DNA of 64,000 nt from Ornithinimicrobium murale (GTDB taxonomy: Bacteria; Actinomycetota; Actinomycetes; Actinomycetales; Dermatophilaceae), in assembly GCF_003352835.1 (NCBI RefSeq), contig NZ_QLVD01000015.1, forward strand, positions 62,001-126,000, given 5' to 3'. This document shows positions 11,616 through 22,478 of the stretch, one piece after another. Position 1 is the first letter of the stretch. Every line of letters begins with the position of its first letter. Below the pieces are notes generated by a model that ran no database searches, had not been told where the DNA came from, and was given only the letters and a program-made list of their open reading frames with translations. The position numbers and the translations under genes were made by a program.

Positions 11616-13033
11616 GCACCAACATCGAAGAGCTCAACCCAGGTCTGAAAGACCTAGGCACCTACGAGTACGGCTGGGCGGACAGTGATGCGGCTGGCTC
11701 GTCCGCCAAGCGTGGACTGAACGAGGACGTCGTCCGCGACATCTCCGAGCGCAAGAGCGAGCCGGCCTGGATGCTCGAGCAGCGGGTCAAGGCCCTGAAG
11801 CTGTTCGACAAGAAGCCCATGCCGACGTGGGGCAGCGACCTCACCGACATCGACTTCCAGAACATCAAGTACTTCGTCCGCTCCACCGAGAAGCAGGCGA
11901 CCACCTGGGACGAGCTGCCGGACGACATCAAGAACACCTACGACCGCCTGGGGATCCCGGAGGCCGAGAAGCAGCGGCTCATCGCTGGTGTCGCCGCCCA
12001 GTACGAGTCCGAGGTGGTCTACCACCAGATCCGTGAGGACCTGGAGGAGAAGGGCGTCCTGTTCCTGGACACCGACACCGCGCTGCGCGAGCACGAGGAC
12101 CTGTTCCGCGAGTACTTCGGTTCGGTCATCCCCTCCGGTGACAACAAGTTCGCCGCGCTCAACACCTCGGTCTGGTCCGGCGGCTCCTTCGTCTACGTCC
12201 CCCCGGGCGTGCACGTCGACATCCCGCTGCAGGCCTACTTCCGGATCAACACCGAGAACATGGGCCAGTTCGAGCGGACCCTGATCATCGCCGACGAGGG
12301 CTCCTCGGTGCACTACGTCGAGGGCTGCACCGCTCCGATCTACCAGACCGACAGCCTGCACAGCGCCGTCGTGGAGATCATCGTGAAGAAGAACGCCCGC
12401 GTGCGTTACACGACGATCCAGAACTGGTCGAACAACGTCTACAACCTGGTCACCAAGCGCGCCACCTGCGCCGAGGGTGCCACCATGGAGTGGATCGACG
12501 GCAACATCGGCTCCAAGGTCACCATGAAGTACCCGGCCGTCTTCCTGCTCGGTGAGCACTCCAAGGGCGAGACCCTGTCGGTGGCCTTCGCCGGCGAGGG
12601 GCAGCACCAGGATGCCGGCTCCAAGATGGTGCACGCTGCGCCGAACACCTCCTCGACCATCGTCTCCAAGTCGGTGGCCCGCGGTGGTGGCCGCACGTCC
12701 TACCGCGGCCTGGTCCAGGTGCTCGAGGGCGCCAAGAACAGCCGGTCCAGCGTCGTCTGCGACGCCCTGCTGGTCGACCAGATCTCCCGCTCGGACACCT
12801 ACCCCTACAACGACATCCGCGAGGACGACGTGCAGATGGCCCACGAGGCCACGGTCTCGAAGGTCTCGGAGGACCAGCTGTTCTACCTGATGTCCCGGGG
12901 TATGAGCGAGACCGAGGCCATGGCGATGATCGTCCGCGGCTTCGTCGAGCCCATCGCGCGCGAGCTCCCGATGGAGTACGCCCTCGAACTCAACCGCCTT
13001 ATCGAGCTTCAGATGGAAGGAGCCGTCGGCTGA
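11612..13033 (+). CDS. sufB: Fe-S cluster assembly scaffold SufB
   Basis: SufB forms the SufBCD scaffold with SufC and SufD on which Fe-S clusters are built. The 473-residue product has the normal length and conserved blocks such as [30 protein letters not shown] and, near the C-terminus, [18 protein letters not shown]. No intein insertion is present, unlike the M. tuberculosis SufB as I remember it. The ATG overlaps the sufR stop by ATGA and its stop overlaps the sufD start by one base, so expression is coupled. Confidence 0.98.
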
Positions 13034-14238
13034 TGACCCTGCTCACCGACAAGCCCAGAGACCACGTCGACCCGCAGAGCACCGTCGGGGCGGCACCGGA
13101 GGAGTCCCGGGCCGCGCGACTCACCTCCTTCGAGGTCAGCGACTTCCCGGTGCCCAACGGGCGCGAGGAGGAGTGGCGCTTCACCCCGGTCGACCGGTTG
13201 GGCGGGGTCTTCGCCGACGAGGGTGACGACGACCGTGAGGGCGACTACGCCGCCGACTACGACGTCTCCGGCGTGATGGACGTCATCGCGCAGACGGCAC
13301 TGGCCCCCGGCCAGGCTCCCCGCGGCACCGTCCTGGTGCCCGGCGACCGCGGCGCGGTCGTGGCCTCCAAGCACACCACCGAGGCCCTCCACCTCAAGCT
13401 CGAGGCGGAGAAGGAATATGCCGAGCCGCTCCGGGTCAACGTCCACGGCAACGGAGCGGGACGCCTGTCCAGCGCCCACTACGTGGTGGAGGCCGGGCAC
13501 CACAGCAAGGCCTTGCTGATCCTGGACCACACCGGCTCGGCGGACCACCGGGGCAACCTGGAGGTCATCGTCGGCGACGGCGCCGAACTGACCGTCGTGT
13601 CGCTGCAGCGCTGGGACGACGACGCGGTCCACCTGGGCCAGCATGATGCCCAGGTCGGTCGCGACGCGACCTACAAGCACATCGCGGTCAGCCTCGGCGG
13701 CTCGATCGTGCGGGTCAACGCCAATGTGAACTACCAGGGCCCGGGTGGCGACGCCACCCTGCTCGGGGTCTACTTCGCCGACGCCGGTCAGCACCTGGAG
13801 CACCGCTCCTTCGTGGACCACAACGAGCCCCACACCAACTCCCTGGTCACCTACAAGGGTGCGCTGCAGGGCGATGGTGCGCACACGGTCTGGGTCGGCG
13901 ACGTGCTGATCCGCAAGGAGGCCGAGGGCATCGACACCTACGAGCTCAACCGCAACCTGGTGCTGACCGACGGCGCACGCGCGGACTCGGTCCCCAACCT
14001 GGAGATCGAGACCGGAGAGATCGCCGGGGCCGGCCACGCCAGCTCCACCGGTCGGTTCGATGACGAGCAGCTCTTCTACCTGATGTCCCGCGGGATCGAC
14101 GAGACCAACGCCCGCCGACTGGTGGTGCGCGGCTTCTTCGCCGACATCATCGCCAAGATCGGCGTGCCCGAGGTCGTCGACACCCTGATGGCGGCCATCG
14201 AGGAGGAGCTCGCGGCCGACATGGGAGCGAGTGCATGA
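13033..14238 (+). CDS. sufD: Fe-S cluster assembly protein SufD
   Basis: SufD is the SufB paralogue in the SufBCD scaffold. The 401-residue product is less conserved in its N-terminal half and ends in the shared beta-helix/C-terminal region with [20 protein letters not shown], parallel to SufB. It starts in a TGATG overlap with sufB and overlaps the Rieske gene by four bases (ATGA). Order sufB-sufD-sufC is the actinobacterial arrangement. Confidence 0.96.
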   Translation: MTLLTDKPRDHVDPQSTVGAAPEESRAARLTSFEVSDFPVPNGREEEWRFTPVDRLGGVFADEGDDDREGDYAADYDVSGVMDVIAQTALAPGQAPRGTVLVPGDRGAVVASKHTTEALHLKLEAEKEYAEPLRVNVHGNGAGRLSSAHYVVEAGHHSKALLILDHTGSADHRGNLEVIVGDGAELTVVSLQRWDDDAVHLGQHDAQVGRDATYKHIAVSLGGSIVRVNANVNYQGPGGDATLLGVYFADAGQHLEHRSFVDHNEPHTNSLVTYKGALQGDGAHTVWVGDVLIRKEAEGIDTYELNRNLVLTDGARADSVPNLEIETGEIAGAGHASSTGRFDDEQLFYLMSRGIDETNARRLVVRGFFADIIAKIGVPEVVDTLMAAIEEELAADMGASA

Positions 14239-14585
14239 CCGACCCCGTCCAGACCCAGCACGCGGGACAGCAGTCCTTCGTGAAGGTCTGCACGCTGGCC
14301 GACCTGCCCGAGGTGGGCGCGGTCCAGGCCAACTTTGACGGACGCCTGGTCGCGATCGCCCGAGACTCCGGCGGCGAGGTGCACGCCTTCGACGACACGT
14401 GCACCCACGCCAACGTCTCCCTCTCCGAGGGAGACCTGGATGACGGCACCATCGAGTGCTGGCTGCACGGCTCGCGCTTCGACATGACCACCGGGGAGCC
14501 CACCGGTCTCCCGGCAACCCAGCCCATCGCCATACACACCGTGAAGATCGAGGGCGAGGACGTCCTCGTCGCCCTCACGTCCTGA
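14235..14585 (+). CDS. Rieske [2Fe-2S] ferredoxin, non-heme-type
   Basis: This 116-residue soluble protein is a single Rieske domain. The cluster ligands are visible as C56-T-H58 in DTCTHANVSL and C75-x-x-H78 in ECWLHGSRFD. It resembles the small ferredoxin subunits of dioxygenases and NirD-like proteins. Its ATG overlaps the sufD stop (ATGA) and it is followed by sufC 20 bases on. Being embedded in the suf operon suggests it is an electron donor for, or an early client of, cluster assembly; that role is inferred from position. Confidence 0.92.
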   Translation: MTDPVQTQHAGQQSFVKVCTLADLPEVGAVQANFDGRLVAIARDSGGEVHAFDDTCTHANVSLSEGDLDDGTIECWLHGSRFDMTTGEPTGLPATQPIAIHTVKIEGEDVLVALTS

Positions 14586-14605
14586 AGACTTCGCAAGGAG
14601 AAGTT

Positions 14606-16659
<2,054 letters not shown>

Positions 16660-16668
16660 GGAGGGACG

Positions 16669-17133
16669 ATGGACCTGTATGGCGAGCTGATCCTGGATCA
16701 CTCCAAGCATCCCCAGCACGTCGGGCTGCGCGAGCCGTTCGGCGCCGAGGTGCACCACATCAACCCGACCTGCGGCGACGAGGTGACCCTGCGCGTGCAG
16801 GTCACCGATGGCGTGGTCACCGACGTCTCCTACGACGCGCAGGGCTGCTCGATCTCCATCGCGAGCACCTCGGTGCTGGCGGAGGAGACGATCGGACACC
16901 CGGTGGACGAGGCGCTGGAGACCTTCCTGGCGATGCGTGGGATGCTGACCAGCAAGGGCGAGGACGCCGGAGATCCCGAGAAGATCGGCGACGGCGTGGC
17001 CTTCGCCGGGGTGTCCCGCTACCCGGCCCGGGTGAAGTGCGCGCTGCTGGGCTGGACCGCGTTCACCGACGCACTGGCGCGCAGCGGTGAGGACATCTCC
17101 GTGGTGTCCTCGACCGCTGCCAGCCGCACGTGA
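16669..17133 (+). CDS. sufU: SufU zinc-dependent sulfurtransferase
   Basis: SufU accepts persulfide sulfur from SufS and passes it to the SufBCD scaffold. The 154-residue IscU-like fold shows the zinc ligands C35 and D37 (NPTCGDE), C60 (AQGCSIS) and C124 (RVKCALLGW). An insertion between the second and third ligands (about residues 90-115) distinguishes SufU from IscU. A GAGGGACG site precedes the ATG. It pairs with sufS immediately upstream. Confidence 0.96.
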   Translation: MDLYGELILDHSKHPQHVGLREPFGAEVHHINPTCGDEVTLRVQVTDGVVTDVSYDAQGCSISIASTSVLAEETIGHPVDEALETFLAMRGMLTSKGEDAGDPEKIGDGVAFAGVSRYPARVKCALLGWTAFTDALARSGEDISVVSSTAASRT

Positions 17134-17163
17134 GACCCTGAGACCACCAACGAGGAGGACCCG

Positions 17164-17490
17164 ATGAGCACGACCACCACACCACCCAACGTCGCGGACG
17201 TCGAGGAGGCCCTGCACGACGTCGTCGACCCTGAGCTGGGCATCAACGTCGTCGACCTGGGCCTGGTCTACGGCCTCACCGTGGACGCCCAGTCCCATGT
17301 GGTCATCGACATGACCCTGACCAGCGCCGCCTGCCCGCTCACCGACGTGATCGAGGAGCAGATCAGCAGCGTCCTGGAGGGCCTGGTCGCCAGCCACCGC
17401 ATCAACTGGGTCTGGATGCCGCCGTGGGGCCCGGACAAGATCACCCCCGAGGGCCGCGAGCAGTTGCGCGCCCTCGGCTTCAACGTCTGA
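17164..17490 (+). CDS. sufT: SufT-type metal-sulfur cluster protein (MIP18/DUF59)
   Basis: SufT is a small MIP18 (DUF59) protein that helps deliver Fe-S clusters to target proteins. The 108-residue product has the family start VEEALHDVVDPELGINVVDLGLVYG and the conserved cysteine in TSAACPLTDVIEEQI. It follows sufU by 30 bases with a GAGGAGG ribosome-binding site, and closes the canonical suf operon as in mycobacteria. Confidence 0.93.
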   Translation: MSTTTTPPNVADVEEALHDVVDPELGINVVDLGLVYGLTVDAQSHVVIDMTLTSAACPLTDVIEEQISSVLEGLVASHRINWVWMPPWGPDKITPEGREQLRALGFNV

Positions 17491-17494
17491 GCCG

Positions 17495-18112
17495 GTGAGC
17501 GCCGGCCCGGGGCGGGTGGTCGAGGTCGACCCCGCACGCCTGGACCGGTGGATCGAGGGCTTCACGCAGCGGCACGGTGTGCCGGAGCGTTCCGTGGGGG
17601 ACGACCCGGAGACCGTGCCGTTCGTGCTCACTGCGCCCGACGGTGCAGTGGCCCAGGTGCTGAGCTGGGCACCCGGGGCGGTCGACCTGCCGGCCCGGCT
17701 CGGTCTGGTCCTGCTGCGCAGGGGTGGGTATGCCGTGGGGCTGGCCGACGGGGACCGGCTCACCGACCACTACTGCGGGACCCGCTATGTGCAGTCCCGG
17801 ACGGCCGCCGGTGGCTGGTCCCAGCAACGATACGCCCGCCGCCGCGGCAACCAGGCCGACGCGCTCGTGGAGCGGGTGGTCGAGCAGGCCGCCGACCGGC
17901 TGCTGACACCCCAAGGTCCGCTGGTGGACGCCCTCGTGGTGGGCGGCGACAAGGCCCTGGTGCGCCAGGTGCTCGAGGCGCCGCTGCTGGCACCACTCAC
18001 CGACCTGCCCCGCCGCGAGTTCTACAACGTGCCCGACCCGCGGCTGAAGGTCCTGCACGACACCCTGCTCCGGGGTCGGGCCACCCGCATCCGGATCGCG
18101 GAGCCACTCTGA
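17495..18112 (+). CDS. acVLRF1-family peptidyl-tRNA hydrolase
   Basis: This is an actinobacterial VLRF1-type protein, related to the Vms1/ANKZF1 release-factor-like hydrolases that free peptides from stalled ribosome complexes. The 205-residue product has the family core GGYAVGLADGDRL and the glutamine-bearing catalytic loop GGWSQQRYARRRGNQ. The GTG start lies 4 bases after the sufT stop, so it is probably co-transcribed with the suf operon. The function assignment is by family; a link to Fe-S assembly is only positional. A strong hairpin follows the gene. Confidence 0.82.
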   Translation: MSAGPGRVVEVDPARLDRWIEGFTQRHGVPERSVGDDPETVPFVLTAPDGAVAQVLSWAPGAVDLPARLGLVLLRRGGYAVGLADGDRLTDHYCGTRYVQSRTAAGGWSQQRYARRRGNQADALVERVVEQAADRLLTPQGPLVDALVVGGDKALVRQVLEAPLLAPLTDLPRREFYNVPDPRLKVLHDTLLRGRATRIRIAEPL

Positions 18113-18129
18113 ACCGTGGCCGGTACGAC

Positions 18130-18167
18130 AACGGGCTGCCCACCCTCCGTGGGGTGGACAGCCCGTT
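18130..18167. terminator. Strong bidirectional terminator hairpin
   Basis: AACGGGCTG (18130-18138) pairs with CAGCCCGTT (18159-18167), and after one C/A mismatch CCACC (18140-18144) pairs with GGTGG (18153-18157), leaving an 8-base loop. It lies between the converging acVLRF1 and symporter genes and likely ends both transcripts. Confidence 0.88.
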
Positions 18168-18185
18168 GGGCACCAGCTCAGCTGG

Positions 18186-19517
18186 TCAGGCGGTGGCGAG
18201 GGTCGTCTCCGCCTCCTCCCGCCAGGCCTGTCCCGCCCGGGGCGCGTTGTAGGCATCCTTGTCGAGGATGCCCTCGCGGGCCGCGACGATCGTGGGCACC
18301 AGAGCCTGTCCGGCGACGTTGGTGGCAGTGCGCCCCATGTCCAGGATCGGGTCGATCGCCAGCAGCAGGCCGACACCCTCCAGCGGCAGACCGATGGTGG
18401 ACAGCGTGAGGGTGAGCATGACCATCGCCCCGGTCACGCCAGCGGTGGCCGCGGAGCCGATGACCGAGACGAACGCGATGAGCAGGTAGTCGGTGATCCC
18501 CAGGTTCACTCCGAAGAACTGGGCGACGAAGATCGCGGAAATCGCCGGATAGACCGCGGCGCAGCCGTCCATCTTGGTGGTGGCGCCCAGCGGCACGGCG
18601 AAGGAACTGTAGGCCCGCGGCACCCCGAGGTTCTTCTCCGTGACCGCCTGCGTGACCGGCAGCGTGCCGATCGAGGAGCGGGAGACGAAAGCGAGCTGGA
18701 TCGCCGGCCAGGCGCCGGTGAAGAACTGCTTGACCGACAGGTTGTGCGCCCGCAGGATCACGGGGTAGAGCACGGTCAGCACAAGGGCGAGACCCACGTA
18801 GATGGCCACGGCATACCAGCCCAGGGACCCCAGGGCGTCCCAGCCGTAGGTGGCCACGGCCTTGCCGAGCAGTCCGACGGTGGCCAGGGGCGCGAGCAGG
18901 ATGACCCACCACAGCACCTTCTGGACCACTGCCAGCGCCGATCGGGTGATGTCCAGGAAGGGTTCGGCCGCCTGGCCGACCTTGAGGGCGGCGATGCCGA
19001 AGGCGATCGCTACGATCAGGATCTGGAGCACGTTGAAGGACAGGCCGACGCTGCCGTCGTCCCCGGCCGAGCCCTGCAGGCCGAGCATGTTGGCGGGGAT
19101 CAGTCCGGTCAGGAAGTCTAGCCAGGAGCCGCTCGAGCCCGGCGCCATGGCGTCCGCGCCGGTCACCGAGGTGCCCCGAGCCGGGTTGATGACCAGGCCG
19201 ACGGCCATGCCGATGGCGACCGAGGCCAGGGCTGTCACGGCAAACCAGAACAGGGTCTGCCAGGCAAGCCGGGCAGCGCCCGTCACCTCGCGCAGGTTGG
19301 CGATCGAGCTGACGATGGCCAGGAAGACCAAGGGCGGCACGATGGCACGCAGCAGGGTGACGAAGGCCGAGCCGATGATGGTGAGCGTCTCGGTGAGCCA
19401 GTTGGGGTCATCGGCGCCGCCGCCCAGCTGTCGGGCGAGCAGTCCGAGGACGACGCCGAGGACGAGGCCAATCAGGACTTGGGTGCCGAAGGTGATGCGG
19501 CGCAGGCGAGTGAGCAT
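18186..19517 (-). CDS. DAACS-family cation symporter, TcyP-like (probable L-cystine uptake)
   Basis: This is a 443-residue Na+/H+-coupled symporter of the dicarboxylate/amino acid:cation family with about eight membrane segments and two re-entrant loops. The substrate region reads SRSSIGTLP, then KMDGCAAVYPA, and later DMGRTATNVAG. By recollection these resemble B. subtilis TcyP (a cystine carrier), where GCAGIYPA replaces the DGT of glutamate carriers. A 31-codon Cys-containing leader peptide lies upstream on the same strand. I start it at the ATG at 19517; the open frame continues to 19706 but the extra region is not family-like. Cystine uptake is inferred; general dicarboxylate transport is the alternative. 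Confidence 0.85.
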   Translation of the reverse strand: MLTRLRRITFGTQVLIGLVLGVVLGLLARQLGGGADDPNWLTETLTIIGSAFVTLLRAIVPPLVFLAIVSSIANLREVTGAARLAWQTLFWFAVTALASVAIGMAVGLVINPARGTSVTGADAMAPGSSGSWLDFLTGLIPANMLGLQGSAGDDGSVGLSFNVLQILIVAIAFGIAALKVGQAAEPFLDITRSALAVVQKVLWWVILLAPLATVGLLGKAVATYGWDALGSLGWYAVAIYVGLALVLTVLYPVILRAHNLSVKQFFTGAWPAIQLAFVSRSSIGTLPVTQAVTEKNLGVPRAYSSFAVPLGATTKMDGCAAVYPAISAIFVAQFFGVNLGITDYLLIAFVSVIGSAATAGVTGAMVMLTLTLSTIGLPLEGVGLLLAIDPILDMGRTATNVAGQALVPTIVAAREGILDKDAYNAPRAGQAWREEAETTLATA

Positions 19518-19542
19518 GGGGCAGTGAGCCTTTCGGGCAGGG

Positions 19543-19561
19543 TGCACCCCGGTGGGGTGCA
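19543..19561 (-). promoter_or_regulatory. Perfect 8-bp hairpin in the symporter 5' leader
   Basis: TGCACCCC (19543-19550) and GGGGTGCA (19554-19561) form a perfect stem with a 3-base loop, ending 26 bases before the symporter start. There is no following T-tract. It could mask the ribosome-binding region or act as part of an attenuator. Confidence 0.55.
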
Positions 19562-19571
19562 TGGAGGAAAG

Positions 19572-19599
19572 ACCCTCGGGAGTCGTGCTCGACCGAGAG
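19572..19599 (-). promoter_or_regulatory. Candidate attenuator stem between leader peptide and symporter
   Basis: In the minus-strand RNA an 8-pair stem (ACUCUCGG with CCGAGGGU, one G-U pair) with a loop of about 12 bases lies between the leader-peptide stop at 19651 and the symporter start at 19517. A weaker CCGC/GCGG stem sits at 19607-19619. Alternative pairing controlled by ribosome position on the leader peptide is possible but not demonstrated. Confidence 0.4.
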
Positions 19600-19650
19600 T
19601 CAGGGGCCGCGTGGTGCGGCGGGAGGTGCAACCTCGTGGAAAGGTCGTCC

Positions 19651-19746
19651 TCAGGAGCGAGAGAGACGACAACGGCACGTGGTGTGGCGCAACAGATCGA
19701 CGTCAAGGCGTCGAGTCAGTCCCCACACGTTGTGTCGCACGATCAT
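19651..19746 (-). CDS. Cys-containing leader peptide (31 aa), probable cysteine attenuator
   Basis: A short minus-strand frame starts at an ATG (19746), or two codons later at a GTG (19740), shortly after GGAGG. It ends in TGA at 19651, 133 bases before the symporter start. The peptide contains LTRRLDVDLLRHTTCRCR, close to the pattern (Arg-rich, VDL-x-R, then Cys near the end) I recall for short actinobacterial leader peptides in front of sulfur-assimilation and cysteine genes. Two Cys codons (TGC, TGT) lie 9 and 7 codons before the stop. Ribosome stalling at these when Cys-tRNA is scarce would regulate the symporter. Confidence 0.65.
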   Translation of the reverse strand: MIVRHNVWGLTRRLDVDLLRHTTCRCRLSRS

Positions 19747-19848
19747 CGAACCTCCGTGGCGGCCACCCCTATTCCCGACTGCCCCATCCATTCTGTGATG
19801 TGGCTCATAATGACGGCCGCTGCGGCACGAAGCCGAAACGGCCTGTCA

Positions 19849-20766
19849 TCAGCCCAGGTCCCCGCTGAAGGTGTTGCACTGGTTGGGGTCACCGGACTCA
19901 TAGCCGGTCATGAACCACTTCTGGCGCTGCTCGGAGGAGCCATGGGTCCAGTTCTCCGGGGTGACCCGCCCTTGCATCTGCTCCTGGATGCGGTCGTCCC
20001 CGACCGCCTCCGCCGCAGAGAGGGCCGAGTCGATCTGACCCTGGGTGACCGGCTCCAGGATCGCCTGGTCCTCCTGTCCCAGGCGCGTGCCGTCCGCGTG
20101 GGCCACCCAGACACCCGCGTAGCAGTCGGCCTGCAGCTCCACGCGGACGGCTCCTGACTCCGGGCCCTGCGGGTCCTGCTGGGCCCGGCCGAGGACGCCG
20201 TTGAGGTTCTGGACGTGGTGACCGTACTCGTGCCCGACGACATACATCTGGGAGAGGGAGCCGCCGTCGCCGCCCAGCTGCTCCAACTGGTCGAAGAAGC
20301 TGACGTCGATATAGACCTGCTGGTCCAGCGGGCAGTAGAACGGCCCGACCTGGCTGTTGGCGGTTCCGCACCCGGTCTCGACCACGCCGGAGAAGATCAC
20401 GGTCTGGGCCGGCTGGTAGTCCGACCAGGCGCTGGTCCAGAAGGCCTGGACGCTGTTCACGGTGCCGATCACCAGGCAGTCCCGGTGCTCGTTGGCGTCC
20501 GCGCCGGTCTGGCAGTGGGAGAAGTCGTCGGAGACACCCTCACCTCCGGCGGTCACCTCGTTGCCGCTGAAGTTCCAGCTCTGACCGCCTGCGGCGCCGC
20601 CGCCAGCGCCGCCCAGACCACCGCCGAAGATCAGGTAGAGCACGAGCAGGATGATGCCGCCGACCCCTCCGCCGGCCACCATGCCGCCGCCGCCCCGGCG
20701 ACCGCCTCCGCCACCGCCGCTACGGACCTGGCTGGTGTCGAGCCGGGCGTTCTCCTTGAAGGTCAT
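19849..20766 (-). CDS. Neutral zinc metallopeptidase (YpfJ family)
   Basis: This is a membrane-anchored zinc peptidase of the PF04228 family. The 305-residue product has a glycine/arginine-rich N-terminus, one transmembrane segment at about residues 35-50 (VGGIILLVLYLIFGGG), then an extracytoplasmic domain with the zinc motif HEYGHH (H179, E180, H183). Cysteines at about 85, 97, 133 and 145 could form disulfides. The ATG at 20766 has a GGAGAG site. It is transcribed alone; substrates are unknown. A weak TAGACT -10 in the gap to 20880 could serve the opposite gene. Confidence 0.93.
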   Translation of the reverse strand: MTFKENARLDTSQVRSGGGGGGRRGGGGMVAGGGVGGIILLVLYLIFGGGLGGAGGGAAGGQSWNFSGNEVTAGGEGVSDDFSHCQTGADANEHRDCLVIGTVNSVQAFWTSAWSDYQPAQTVIFSGVVETGCGTANSQVGPFYCPLDQQVYIDVSFFDQLEQLGGDGGSLSQMYVVGHEYGHHVQNLNGVLGRAQQDPQGPESGAVRVELQADCYAGVWVAHADGTRLGQEDQAILEPVTQGQIDSALSAAEAVGDDRIQEQMQGRVTPENWTHGSSEQRQKWFMTGYESGDPNQCNTFSGDLG

Positions 20767-20879
20767 GCTCTCTCCGCTCTATCTCATTCGCGGGACGGTG
20801 CGCCGCGATCGTAGACTAGCCACCGCACGCCCACTTAGCACCTCTTGCGCAAGCATGCCGTCCCCAAGGAGTCCTGTTC

Positions 20880-22478
20880 GTGATCACTGTCTCGGGCGTC
20901 GAGTTGCGTGCGGGCTCCCGGCTCCTGATGGACGAGGTCGCCTTCCAGGTCGCTCCCGGGGACCGGGTCGGTCTGGTCGGGCGCAACGGCGCTGGCAAGA
21001 CCACCCTGACCAAGGTGCTGGCCGGCGAGGCCGAGCCCGCTGCCGGAGCCGTGACCCGCCGCGGCGATGTGGGGTACCTTCCCCAGGACCCCCGCACCGG
21101 GGACCTGCACGTGCTGGGGCGCGACCGCATCCTGGCCGCTCGCGGCCTGGACACCGTGATCCGGGACCTGCGGACGGCCGAGGAGGGCATGGCCAGCGAC
21201 GACGCCGCGGTGCAGGAGCGGGCCATGGGCCGCTATACCCGCCTCGACGCCGAGTTCACCGCGCGCGGCGGCTACGCCGCCGAGTCCGAGGCCGCGTCCA
21301 TTGCCACCAGCCTGGGACTACCGACACGGGTGCTCGACCAGCCGCTGGCCACGCTCTCCGGCGGTCAGCGCCGCCGCATCGAACTGGCCCGGATCCTGTT
21401 CAGCGGGGCATCGACCCTGCTGCTGGACGAACCGACCAACCACCTCGACGCCGACTCGATCGTGTGGCTGCGGGACTACCTGAAGAACTACCCAGGTGGA
21501 CTCCTGGTGATCTCCCACGACGTCGAACTCATCGAGCAGGTCGTCAACCGGGTCTTCCACCTGGACGCCAACCGCGGTGAGATCGACGAGTACAACATGG
21601 GCTGGAAGACCTATCTGCAGCAGCGGGAGACCGACGAGCGTCGCCGCAAGCGGGAGCGGGCCAACGCCGAGAAGAAGGCCGCGGTCCTGATGGCCCAGGC
21701 AGACAAGATGCGGGCCAAGGCCACCAAGGCGGTCGCGGCACAGAACATGGCACGCCGCGCACAGAAGCTGCTGGCCGGGCTCGACGCGGAGCGGGCCACC
21801 GACAAGGTCGCCAAGCTGCGCTTCCCCAGCCCGGCACCGTGCGGCAAGACACCGTTGTCGGCCACCGGTCTGTCCCGATCCTACGGGTCCCTGGAGATCT
21901 TCACCGACGTGGACCTCAACATCGACCGCGGGTCCCGGGTGGTCGTGCTCGGTCTCAACGGCGCGGGCAAGACGACCCTGCTGCGGCTGCTCGCCGGGCT
22001 CGACGAGCCGGACACCGGCCAGGTGGAGCCGGGCCACGGCCTGAAGCTCGGCTACTACGCCCAGGAGCACGAGACGCTCGATGTGTCCCGGTCGGTCCTG
22101 GAGAACATGCGCACCTCCGCCCCCGACCTGGACGACACCGAGACGCGCAAGGTGCTGGGGTCCTTCCTGTTCAGCGGTGACGACGTGGACAAACCGGCCG
22201 GCGTGCTCTCCGGTGGTGAGAAGACCCGGCTGGCCCTGGCCATGCTCGTGGTCTCCGCCGCCAACGTGCTGCTCCTGGACGAGCCCACCAACAACCTGGA
22301 CCCCGCCTCCCGTGAGGAGGTCCTCGCGGCGCTGCGCACCTATGAGGGCGCGGTCGTCCTGGTCAGCCACGACGAGGGCGCGGTGGCGGCCCTGGAGCCG
22401 GAGCGGGTGCTGCTGCTGCCCGACGGGGTGGAGGACCTGTGGAACCAGGACTACCAGGACCTCATCTCCCTGGCATGA
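20880..22478 (+). CDS. ABC-F family ribosome-associated ATPase
   Basis: ABC-F proteins are soluble tandem ATPases that act on the ribosome in translation control or antibiotic protection. The 532-residue product has two Walker A motifs (GRNGAGKTT near residue 35; GLNGAGKTT near 360), two signatures (LSGGQRRRIELARIL, LSGGEKTRLALAML) and two DEPTN Walker B regions. A charged arm/linker lies between the domains (ETDERRRKRERANAEKKAA). There are no membrane segments. The GTG at 20880 follows AAGGAG. It resembles the ABC-F gene downstream of suf in mycobacteria (Rv1473-like). Whether it protects against drugs cannot be told. Confidence 0.93.
   Translation: MITVSGVELRAGSRLLMDEVAFQVAPGDRVGLVGRNGAGKTTLTKVLAGEAEPAAGAVTRRGDVGYLPQDPRTGDLHVLGRDRILAARGLDTVIRDLRTAEEGMASDDAAVQERAMGRYTRLDAEFTARGGYAAESEAASIATSLGLPTRVLDQPLATLSGGQRRRIELARILFSGASTLLLDEPTNHLDADSIVWLRDYLKNYPGGLLVISHDVELIEQVVNRVFHLDANRGEIDEYNMGWKTYLQQRETDERRRKRERANAEKKAAVLMAQADKMRAKATKAVAAQNMARRAQKLLAGLDAERATDKVAKLRFPSPAPCGKTPLSATGLSRSYGSLEIFTDVDLNIDRGSRVVVLGLNGAGKTTLLRLLAGLDEPDTGQVEPGHGLKLGYYAQEHETLDVSRSVLENMRTSAPDLDDTETRKVLGSFLFSGDDVDKPAGVLSGGEKTRLALAMLVVSAANVLLLDEPTNNLDPASREEVLAALRTYEGAVVLVSHDEGAVAALEPERVLLLPDGVEDLWNQDYQDLISLA

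Follow-up and report, generated by a model that had tools for sequence, protein, structure and literature searches.

On the minus strand of the window (the whole stretch of DNA analysed, 64,000 nucleotides), a gene for an SDF/DAACS symporter of 443 amino acids lies at 18186..19517 (Pfam PF00375, E 4.3e-97). A probable ribosome binding site, GAAAGG, precedes it at 19528..19533 (-), and the same GAAAGG stands before the symporter of the nearest relative, G008, whose protein is 92% identical to that of the window. Upstream of the gene, a short frame at 19746-19651 (-) comprises 31 codons and a stop and has the translation MIVRHNVWGLTRRLDVDLLRHTTCRCRLSRS*; 133 nt separate its stop from the symporter start. 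The frame and the gap were found exactly as claimed in an earlier note on this DNA. Two Cys codons are present in the frame, TGC at 19681-19683 (-) and TGT at 19675..19677 (-). Counted from an invariant Asp (D0) of the leader motif described below, they occupy D+7 and D+9, and the latter is the conserved, putative control position.

The opposite strand carries a SUF-type Fe-S assembly operon (13033-17490, +; assigned by Pfam) that points towards the symporter. It contains the SufBD core, a SufC-type ABC ATPase, a class-V aminotransferase of the cysteine-desulfurase type, and NifU-like and FeS_assembly_P genes. SufS-type enzymes use up cysteine. An acVLRF1 release-factor-like gene at 17495-18112 (+) (PF18859, E 1.1e-43) adjoins the symporter; 16 of the 17 other loci of the genus retain it, and the FeS_assembly_P gene likewise adjoins the symporter in 16/17 of them (1500-nt flanks). 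The acVLRF1 family is related to ribosome-rescue factors.

A probable promoter of the ECF sigma (SigH/SigR) type was recognized at 19749..19775 (-), where GGAAT-N19-GTT fits the consensus GGAAT-N18-19-GTT. This is the SigH consensus of Corynebacterium glutamicum, which drives mshC, mca, sufR and trxB1 according to the accessible text of PMC10012870, and it is in this consensus that the window element resembles the SigH/SigR regulon promoters of actinobacteria. The element precedes all 18 symporter genes of the same genus whether the leader is present or absent, and is still in place at the 16 loci without a leader. In the form GGAAY-N17-19-GTT it was found before 53 of 163 leader-bearing loci (about one third); a near-identical scan gave 54/163 at leader loci, as against 2/163 on the reverse complement and 0/160 far upstream. 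The first in-frame start lies 9-12 nt past the GTT in 41 of the 53 motif-bearing loci. In the window only 8 nt remain between the GTT and GTG 19740, and ATG 19746, the start assumed earlier, is thus probably located 5' of the transcription start. We therefore replace it with GTG 19740, from which the leader ORF (19651..19740, -) would probably be translated leaderless into 29 amino acids, (M)RHNVWGLTRRLDVDLLRHTTCRCRLSRS, followed by the stop. None of the papers searched reports a SigH/SigR-type promoter combined with a leader peptide in front of a symporter.

An ATGA-N6-TCAC palindrome can be read in the sequence at 19795..19808 (-) and resembles a CRP/GlxR-type site. The form [GA]TGA-N6-TCA[CTG] occurs in 16/18 same-genus loci, with or without a leader, at most 260 nt from the start of the match; the window's own copy falls just beyond the stretch scanned.

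The symporter and its probable substrate

Identity of the window symporter to TcyP (YdjN), the cystine/sulfocysteine symporter of E. coli, is about 30% (29% by BLAST; 31% over the alignment), and identity to the E. coli family members GltP, DctA and SstT is 28%, 26% and 25%, respectively. In a tree with these four proteins the branches were long, and TcyP and SstT were joined at a support of 58/53. Since the placement was not settled by the tree, pocket motifs were compared in its place. SRSS, GCAxxYPA with a one-residue insertion in TM7, and P-[IL]-x-DMGRTAxNV in TM8 are common to the window symporter and TcyP and do not occur together in GltP, DctA or SstT, in a comparison that covers a single TcyP (that of E. 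coli) and motifs chosen by the analyst. The substrate region had been read as TcyP-like on the basis of SRSS, GCAAVYPA and DMGRTATNV, and the shared pocket motifs bear this reading out. Our best guess from the motifs is that the symporter carries cystine, and this guess is strengthened by the cysteine-type leader in front of the gene.

Conservation of the leader peptide

The leader motif L-x-x-R-x-x-V-D-x-x-R ... C is conserved before orthologous symporters. Its occurrence with the symporter across actinobacterial genomes, a check proposed in the earlier note, was examined in a class-wide sample of 296 genomes, 82 of which have a symporter orthologue at E 1e-120 or better. The motif was found at 66 of these 82 orthologues (600 nt upstream examined; 79 as one set and three in addition), and the pattern matched 0/261 loci on the reverse strand. 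The class-wide recurrence of the peptide motif before symporter orthologues, in the absence of reverse-strand matches, makes the frame more than a chance occurrence, which is ruled out. Judged by this conservation, the frame at 19746-19651 (-) is a genuine leader peptide of the symporter gene. The window leader has R-4, D0, R+3 and Cys at D+9, and the core residues and this Cys are kept in both the window genome (G000) and G008.

Among named loci (the best 80 of a longer list), 29 have the leader by pattern, and within these 80 it is absent from all 22 Alphaproteobacteria and from Arthrobacter-type loci. Seven of 30 close relatives carry it. In the genus itself it is present at 2 of 18 loci, those of the window genome and G008. 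Lack of the short frame in close relatives had been named beforehand as a sign against the leader; this lack is real for 16/18 same-genus orthologues, but the leader is widespread in the class. In the Geodermatophilaceae, a family identified by matches to named Klenkia, Modestobacter, Blastococcus and Geodermatophilus loci, the symporter is present in 70 of 112 genomes and the leader at all 70 loci (61 by pattern, 9 by eye). A narrow form of the pattern passed over leaders in which D+1 is Tyr, His or Asn, and the wider form recovered seven further leaders from the same 189 loci (class sample from 63 to 64, named set from 23 to 29). An order-wide search for leader DNA was kept out of all counts, being noisy: many of its matches across 149 genomes resemble coding sequence, and a reversed-pattern control also matched in several genomes. 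The 22 alphaproteobacterial loci (L087-L145; Devosia, Rhizobium, Agrobacterium, Ensifer and others) encode symporters 66-70% identical to the actinobacterial one, which, from the sequences, suggests that the gene passed between phyla while the switch did not.

The columns of 83 distinct symporter leaders were compared; the search pattern demanded R-4, D0 and R+3 and left the other columns unconditioned. In the latter, Leu occupies -7 in 81 leaders, Thr or Val -6 in 82 and Ser or Thr +6 in 73, and Cys stands at D+9, nine residues past the invariant Asp, in 76. When all 70 Geodermatophilaceae leaders were read by eye, D0 was present in 70, R+3 in 68 and R-4 in 67. The conserved Arg codons vary in their third positions (entropy 1.68 and 1.45, compared with 1.17 at fourfold sites of the symporter), and the constraint is thus on the peptide rather than on the RNA. 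In the same 70 leaders, pN/pS was 0.44-0.52 for all codons and 0.57-0.60 for the search-independent codons; as controls, the +1 frame of these loci gave 0.99-1.01 and the sequence past the stop 0.97-1.04.

At D+9, Cys was found in 64/64 pattern-detected leaders of the class sample. Of the 70 Geodermatophilaceae leaders, 36 have Cys there, 32 a stop and 2 Trp, and no other residue was seen (31, 28 and 2, respectively, by pattern; 5, 4 and 0 by eye). Thirty pattern-detected leaders lack Cys at +9, and 27 of them contain no Cys codon anywhere from W-9 to the stop; the Cys-less leaders remain under amino-acid-level selection. With a stop at D+9 in 32/70 and Cys codons mostly absent, starvation for Cys-tRNA at D+9 cannot be the signal in these leaders. 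A tree of 44 symporter genes (42 from Geodermatophilaceae, one from Kineococcus and one from Nocardioides) requires at least five changes between Cys and stop, the Cys types being nested among the stop types. A stop at +9 is also seen in one Kineococcus leader (L086) and in that of G064 (L021), the two family relatives of G064 having Cys.

The orthologous leaders were compared with the NCBIfam model NF042934 ('putative leader peptide', cis_reg_atten; cut-off 27 bits). Of five such leaders, that of L020 scored 32.7 bits, three others scored 20-26 bits and that of G008 gave no match. The window peptide, in both its 31-aa and its 22-aa form, gave no match at E up to 10 and is therefore not filed as a member by score; the only match in the window's genome is weak (E 0.067). 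Matches above the cut-off occur in 67 of 98 class genomes, and in three class genomes (G248, G231 and G264) such a match lies just upstream of the symporter. The window leader thus occupies the place where members of the family stand in other genomes. Frames downstream of the 30 best hits were examined and 10 downstream proteins were taken for identification. Nine of the 10 match sulfur/cysteine NCBIfam models, four above the cut-off (sulfonate and sulfate binding proteins, adenylyl-sulfate kinase and cysteine synthase) and the rest below it (two of sulfurtransferase, two of sulfite/nitrite reductase and one of sirohydrochlorin chelatase type), in agreement with the statement of the earlier note that known leaders of this kind mostly precede sulfur-assimilation genes.

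The likeness to NF042934 lies in the core R-x-x-V-D-x-x-R, in Cys at D+9 and in the place before sulfur/cysteine genes. The difference, apart from the missing match of the window peptide, is the stop that replaces Cys in part of the Geodermatophilaceae symporter leaders. Other NF042934 loci have Cys at D+9 in 60/60, a count biased by a profile that ends near the Cys, and Geodermatophilaceae NF042934 leaders before other genes have it in 30/30 examined, where again the profile favours Cys. Two of the five leader peptides also match NF042936 ('Ms4527A family Cys-rich leader peptide'), below its cut-off. In mycobacteria, short ORFs that respond to cysteine are known (Canestrari 2020, as cited in the available portions of PMC13236596 and PMC9094748) and such leaders have been modelled by NCBI. 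The window leader resembles these mycobacterial polycysteine leaders as a probable leaderless short ORF with Cys codons before a cysteine-pathway gene, but it has two Cys codons without a run and would control a symporter.

The spacer and alternative explanations

The stretch from the leader stop to the ribosome binding site (19534..19650, -) is rich in C and poor in G (45% and 25%; MFE z -3.38) and is a candidate Rho-loading region. Spacers were analysed at 89 of 93 loci, four being dropped as short or negative. Their mean composition is 51% C and 25% G, C exceeds G in 89/89, and no such skew is seen before the leader. For the upstream stretch the C skew is +0.35 at leader loci and +0.14 at leaderless orthologues; the C-rich spacer is partly also a property of these upstream regions. 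Structure in the spacers is mildly above chance (mean MFE z -1.36). The leader RNA of the window (247 nt) folds better than 200/200 shuffles (z -3.50), and a hairpin GCCGC-ACCAC-GCGGC with a loop of five nucleotides (19606..19620, -) is common to the window and G008.

An attenuator with an intrinsic terminator had been implied earlier, in which two stems would serve as terminator and antiterminator. Both stems are present in the window, GACUCUCGG ... CCGAGGGUC at 19571..19601 (-) and UGCACCCC-ACC-GGGGUGCA at 19543..19561 (-), and the strong local structure there, along with spacer z values below -2 in 26/89 loci, would suit such a device. However, neither stem forms in G008 in spite of the 92% identity, no T-run lies behind the first, and the leader region of the window has no terminator-like site. 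The GC stem and T-run of a Trp-type intrinsic attenuator were not found in the window, and a T-run (at least 6 T in 8 bases) occurs in only 3/89 spacers. Mutually exclusive stems had been suggested as a check; no conserved alternative stems were found, and a search of 17000-21000 against Rfam was without a match at E up to 1. We regard this explanation as very improbable. Masking of the ribosome binding site, in which a ribosome stalled on the leader would free the symporter site from pairing with the leader, is described for mycobacterial cysteine leaders in the text available of PMC13236596, and in the window CCTTTCC just past the leader stop could, by eye, pair with GAAAGG. At 92 of 93 leader loci (L242 was dropped, no start being found behind its leader), however, mean accessibility of the site was 0.35 in the free RNA, 0.35 with the leader occluded and 0.33 with shuffled leaders. 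The free value lay below the shuffled one in only 33/92 loci, and occlusion raised accessibility by more than 0.1 in 11 loci and lowered it by more than 0.1 in 15. These values make masking quite unlikely.

Plain Cys-tRNA attenuation would ascribe stalling solely to missing charged Cys-tRNA, the peptide sequence being irrelevant. Such a mechanism agrees with the prevalence of Cys at D+9 (76/83) and with the further Cys codons often found at +2, +7 and +10; mycobacterial polycysteine leaders are described as translation attenuation in the same partial source (PMC13236596) and as cysteine-responsive in the title of Canestrari 2020. It fails to explain the amino-acid-level conservation 6 to 16 residues before the Cys, or the stop that stands for the Cys codon in about half of one family (32/70 genomes) with the peptide still selected, and the conserved alternative stems or T-run were not found. 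Pure Cys-tRNA sensing thus seems rather unlikely. Of the Cys-tRNA-sensing attenuator proposed in the earlier note, the leader, its sulfur/cysteine leader class and the TcyP-like motifs stand, and unmasking of the ribosome binding site by a stalled ribosome does not. The symporter might instead carry dicarboxylates or acidic amino acids, with the leader a leftover that has no present role in this genome. The nearest NCBIfam models, DctA (183 bits against a cut-off of 513) and GltP, are both far below cut-off, the nearest solved structures are aspartate transporters, and the symporter keeps the Arg of DMGRT, which binds the substrate carboxylate in the archaeal aspartate transporter; the 16/18 same-genus orthologues without a leader would fit a leftover. 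This explanation is nevertheless improbable, given the TM7 insertion and pocket motifs that match TcyP and not GltP, DctA and SstT together, and the retention of Cys at D+9 and the core residues in G000 and G008.

Proposed mechanism of leader control

From the sequence comparisons, the leader is most likely a translation-based on/off switch, and control of the symporter by a cysteine-linked, ribosome-mediated leader is the explanation we favour and consider likely. The arrest peptide TnaC of E. coli offers a comparison. Its key residues are W12, D16, I19 and P24, and it arrests with the stop codon in the A site, shielding a Rho site directly behind (PMC10941005, from an excerpt). In the present leaders R-4, D0 and R+3, which were set by the search pattern, lie 12, 8 and 5 residues back from residue +8, which would occupy the P site when codon D+9 is in the A site. 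The spacing equals that of the TnaC key residues, an Asp is conserved, a stop would again occupy the A site in 32/70 leaders of one family, and a spacer that would suit Rho follows directly after the stop. Trp12 and Ile19 of TnaC are Arg in these leaders; the likeness is one of spacing and not of sequence homology, and the match could be a coincidence. Taken together, the fixed pattern, the stop at the place of the Cys and the TnaC-like spacing suggest that the growing peptide helps to halt the ribosome.

With this spacing, the C-rich spacer and no support for unmasking of the ribosome binding site, stalling at +8/+9 that is helped by the nascent chain and acts on transcription is favoured. 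In such a mechanism, RNA would be started by a SigH/SigR-type (thiol-stress) promoter at or beside GTG 19740, and the ribosome would begin on the leaderless frame. It would then slow or stop with peptidyl-tRNA at D+8 and the Cys codon D+9 in the A site, and conserved residues of the nascent chain within the exit tunnel (L-7, R-4, D0, R+3) would aid this stalling. With little cysteine at hand, the stalled ribosome would remain and cover the first part of the C-rich spacer, and expression of the importer would continue. When cysteine is plentiful, the ribosome would finish and leave, and the bare C-rich RNA would permit premature termination, most likely by Rho. The direction of this response is assumed from biology. 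Since the controlled gene is a probable cystine symporter, uptake would rise under cysteine shortage or thiol oxidation. The contribution of the nascent chain is put at a little under an even chance, and that of Rho is held more tentatively still.

A broader version of the favoured mechanism can be drawn, in which NF042934-type leaders would be arrest peptides built like TnaC. R-4, D0 and R+3 would lie in the tunnel, and peptidyl-tRNA at +8 would react poorly with the incoming partner at A-site codon +9, either Cys-tRNA or a release factor, the latter in Geodermatophilaceae symporter leaders. The arrested ribosome would guard the C-rich Rho-loading stretch right behind it, and cysteine or another signal of thiol status would act on this ribosome. 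Regulation would then survive the change from Cys to stop, and one class-wide family, linked here to a thiol-stress sigma factor, would stand over cysteine genes. We consider this version unlikely in its entirety and offer it as speculation.

The open-access literature searched yielded no paper that names NF042934 or the leader motif, none on a leader in front of a TcyP-like actinobacterial symporter, and nothing on the fixed geometry or the switch from Cys to stop. Nor does the motif occur in any of the eight S. lividans leader peptides listed in the part of PMC8079986 available. If the favoured mechanism is true, cystine import and sulfate assimilation would share one mode of control throughout a bacterial class, with a thiol-stress promoter added for the importer, and sister species that differ by a Cys codon or a stop at one fixed place would provide a natural experiment.

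A second SDF-family symporter gene is present in the genome of the window (G000:C33:97304-98428, L064; 219 bits). Three Geodermatophilus-type leaders (L090, L323 and L324) have Trp (TGG) at D+9 with a stop as the very next codon, and from their sequence may represent an intermediate between Cys and stop.
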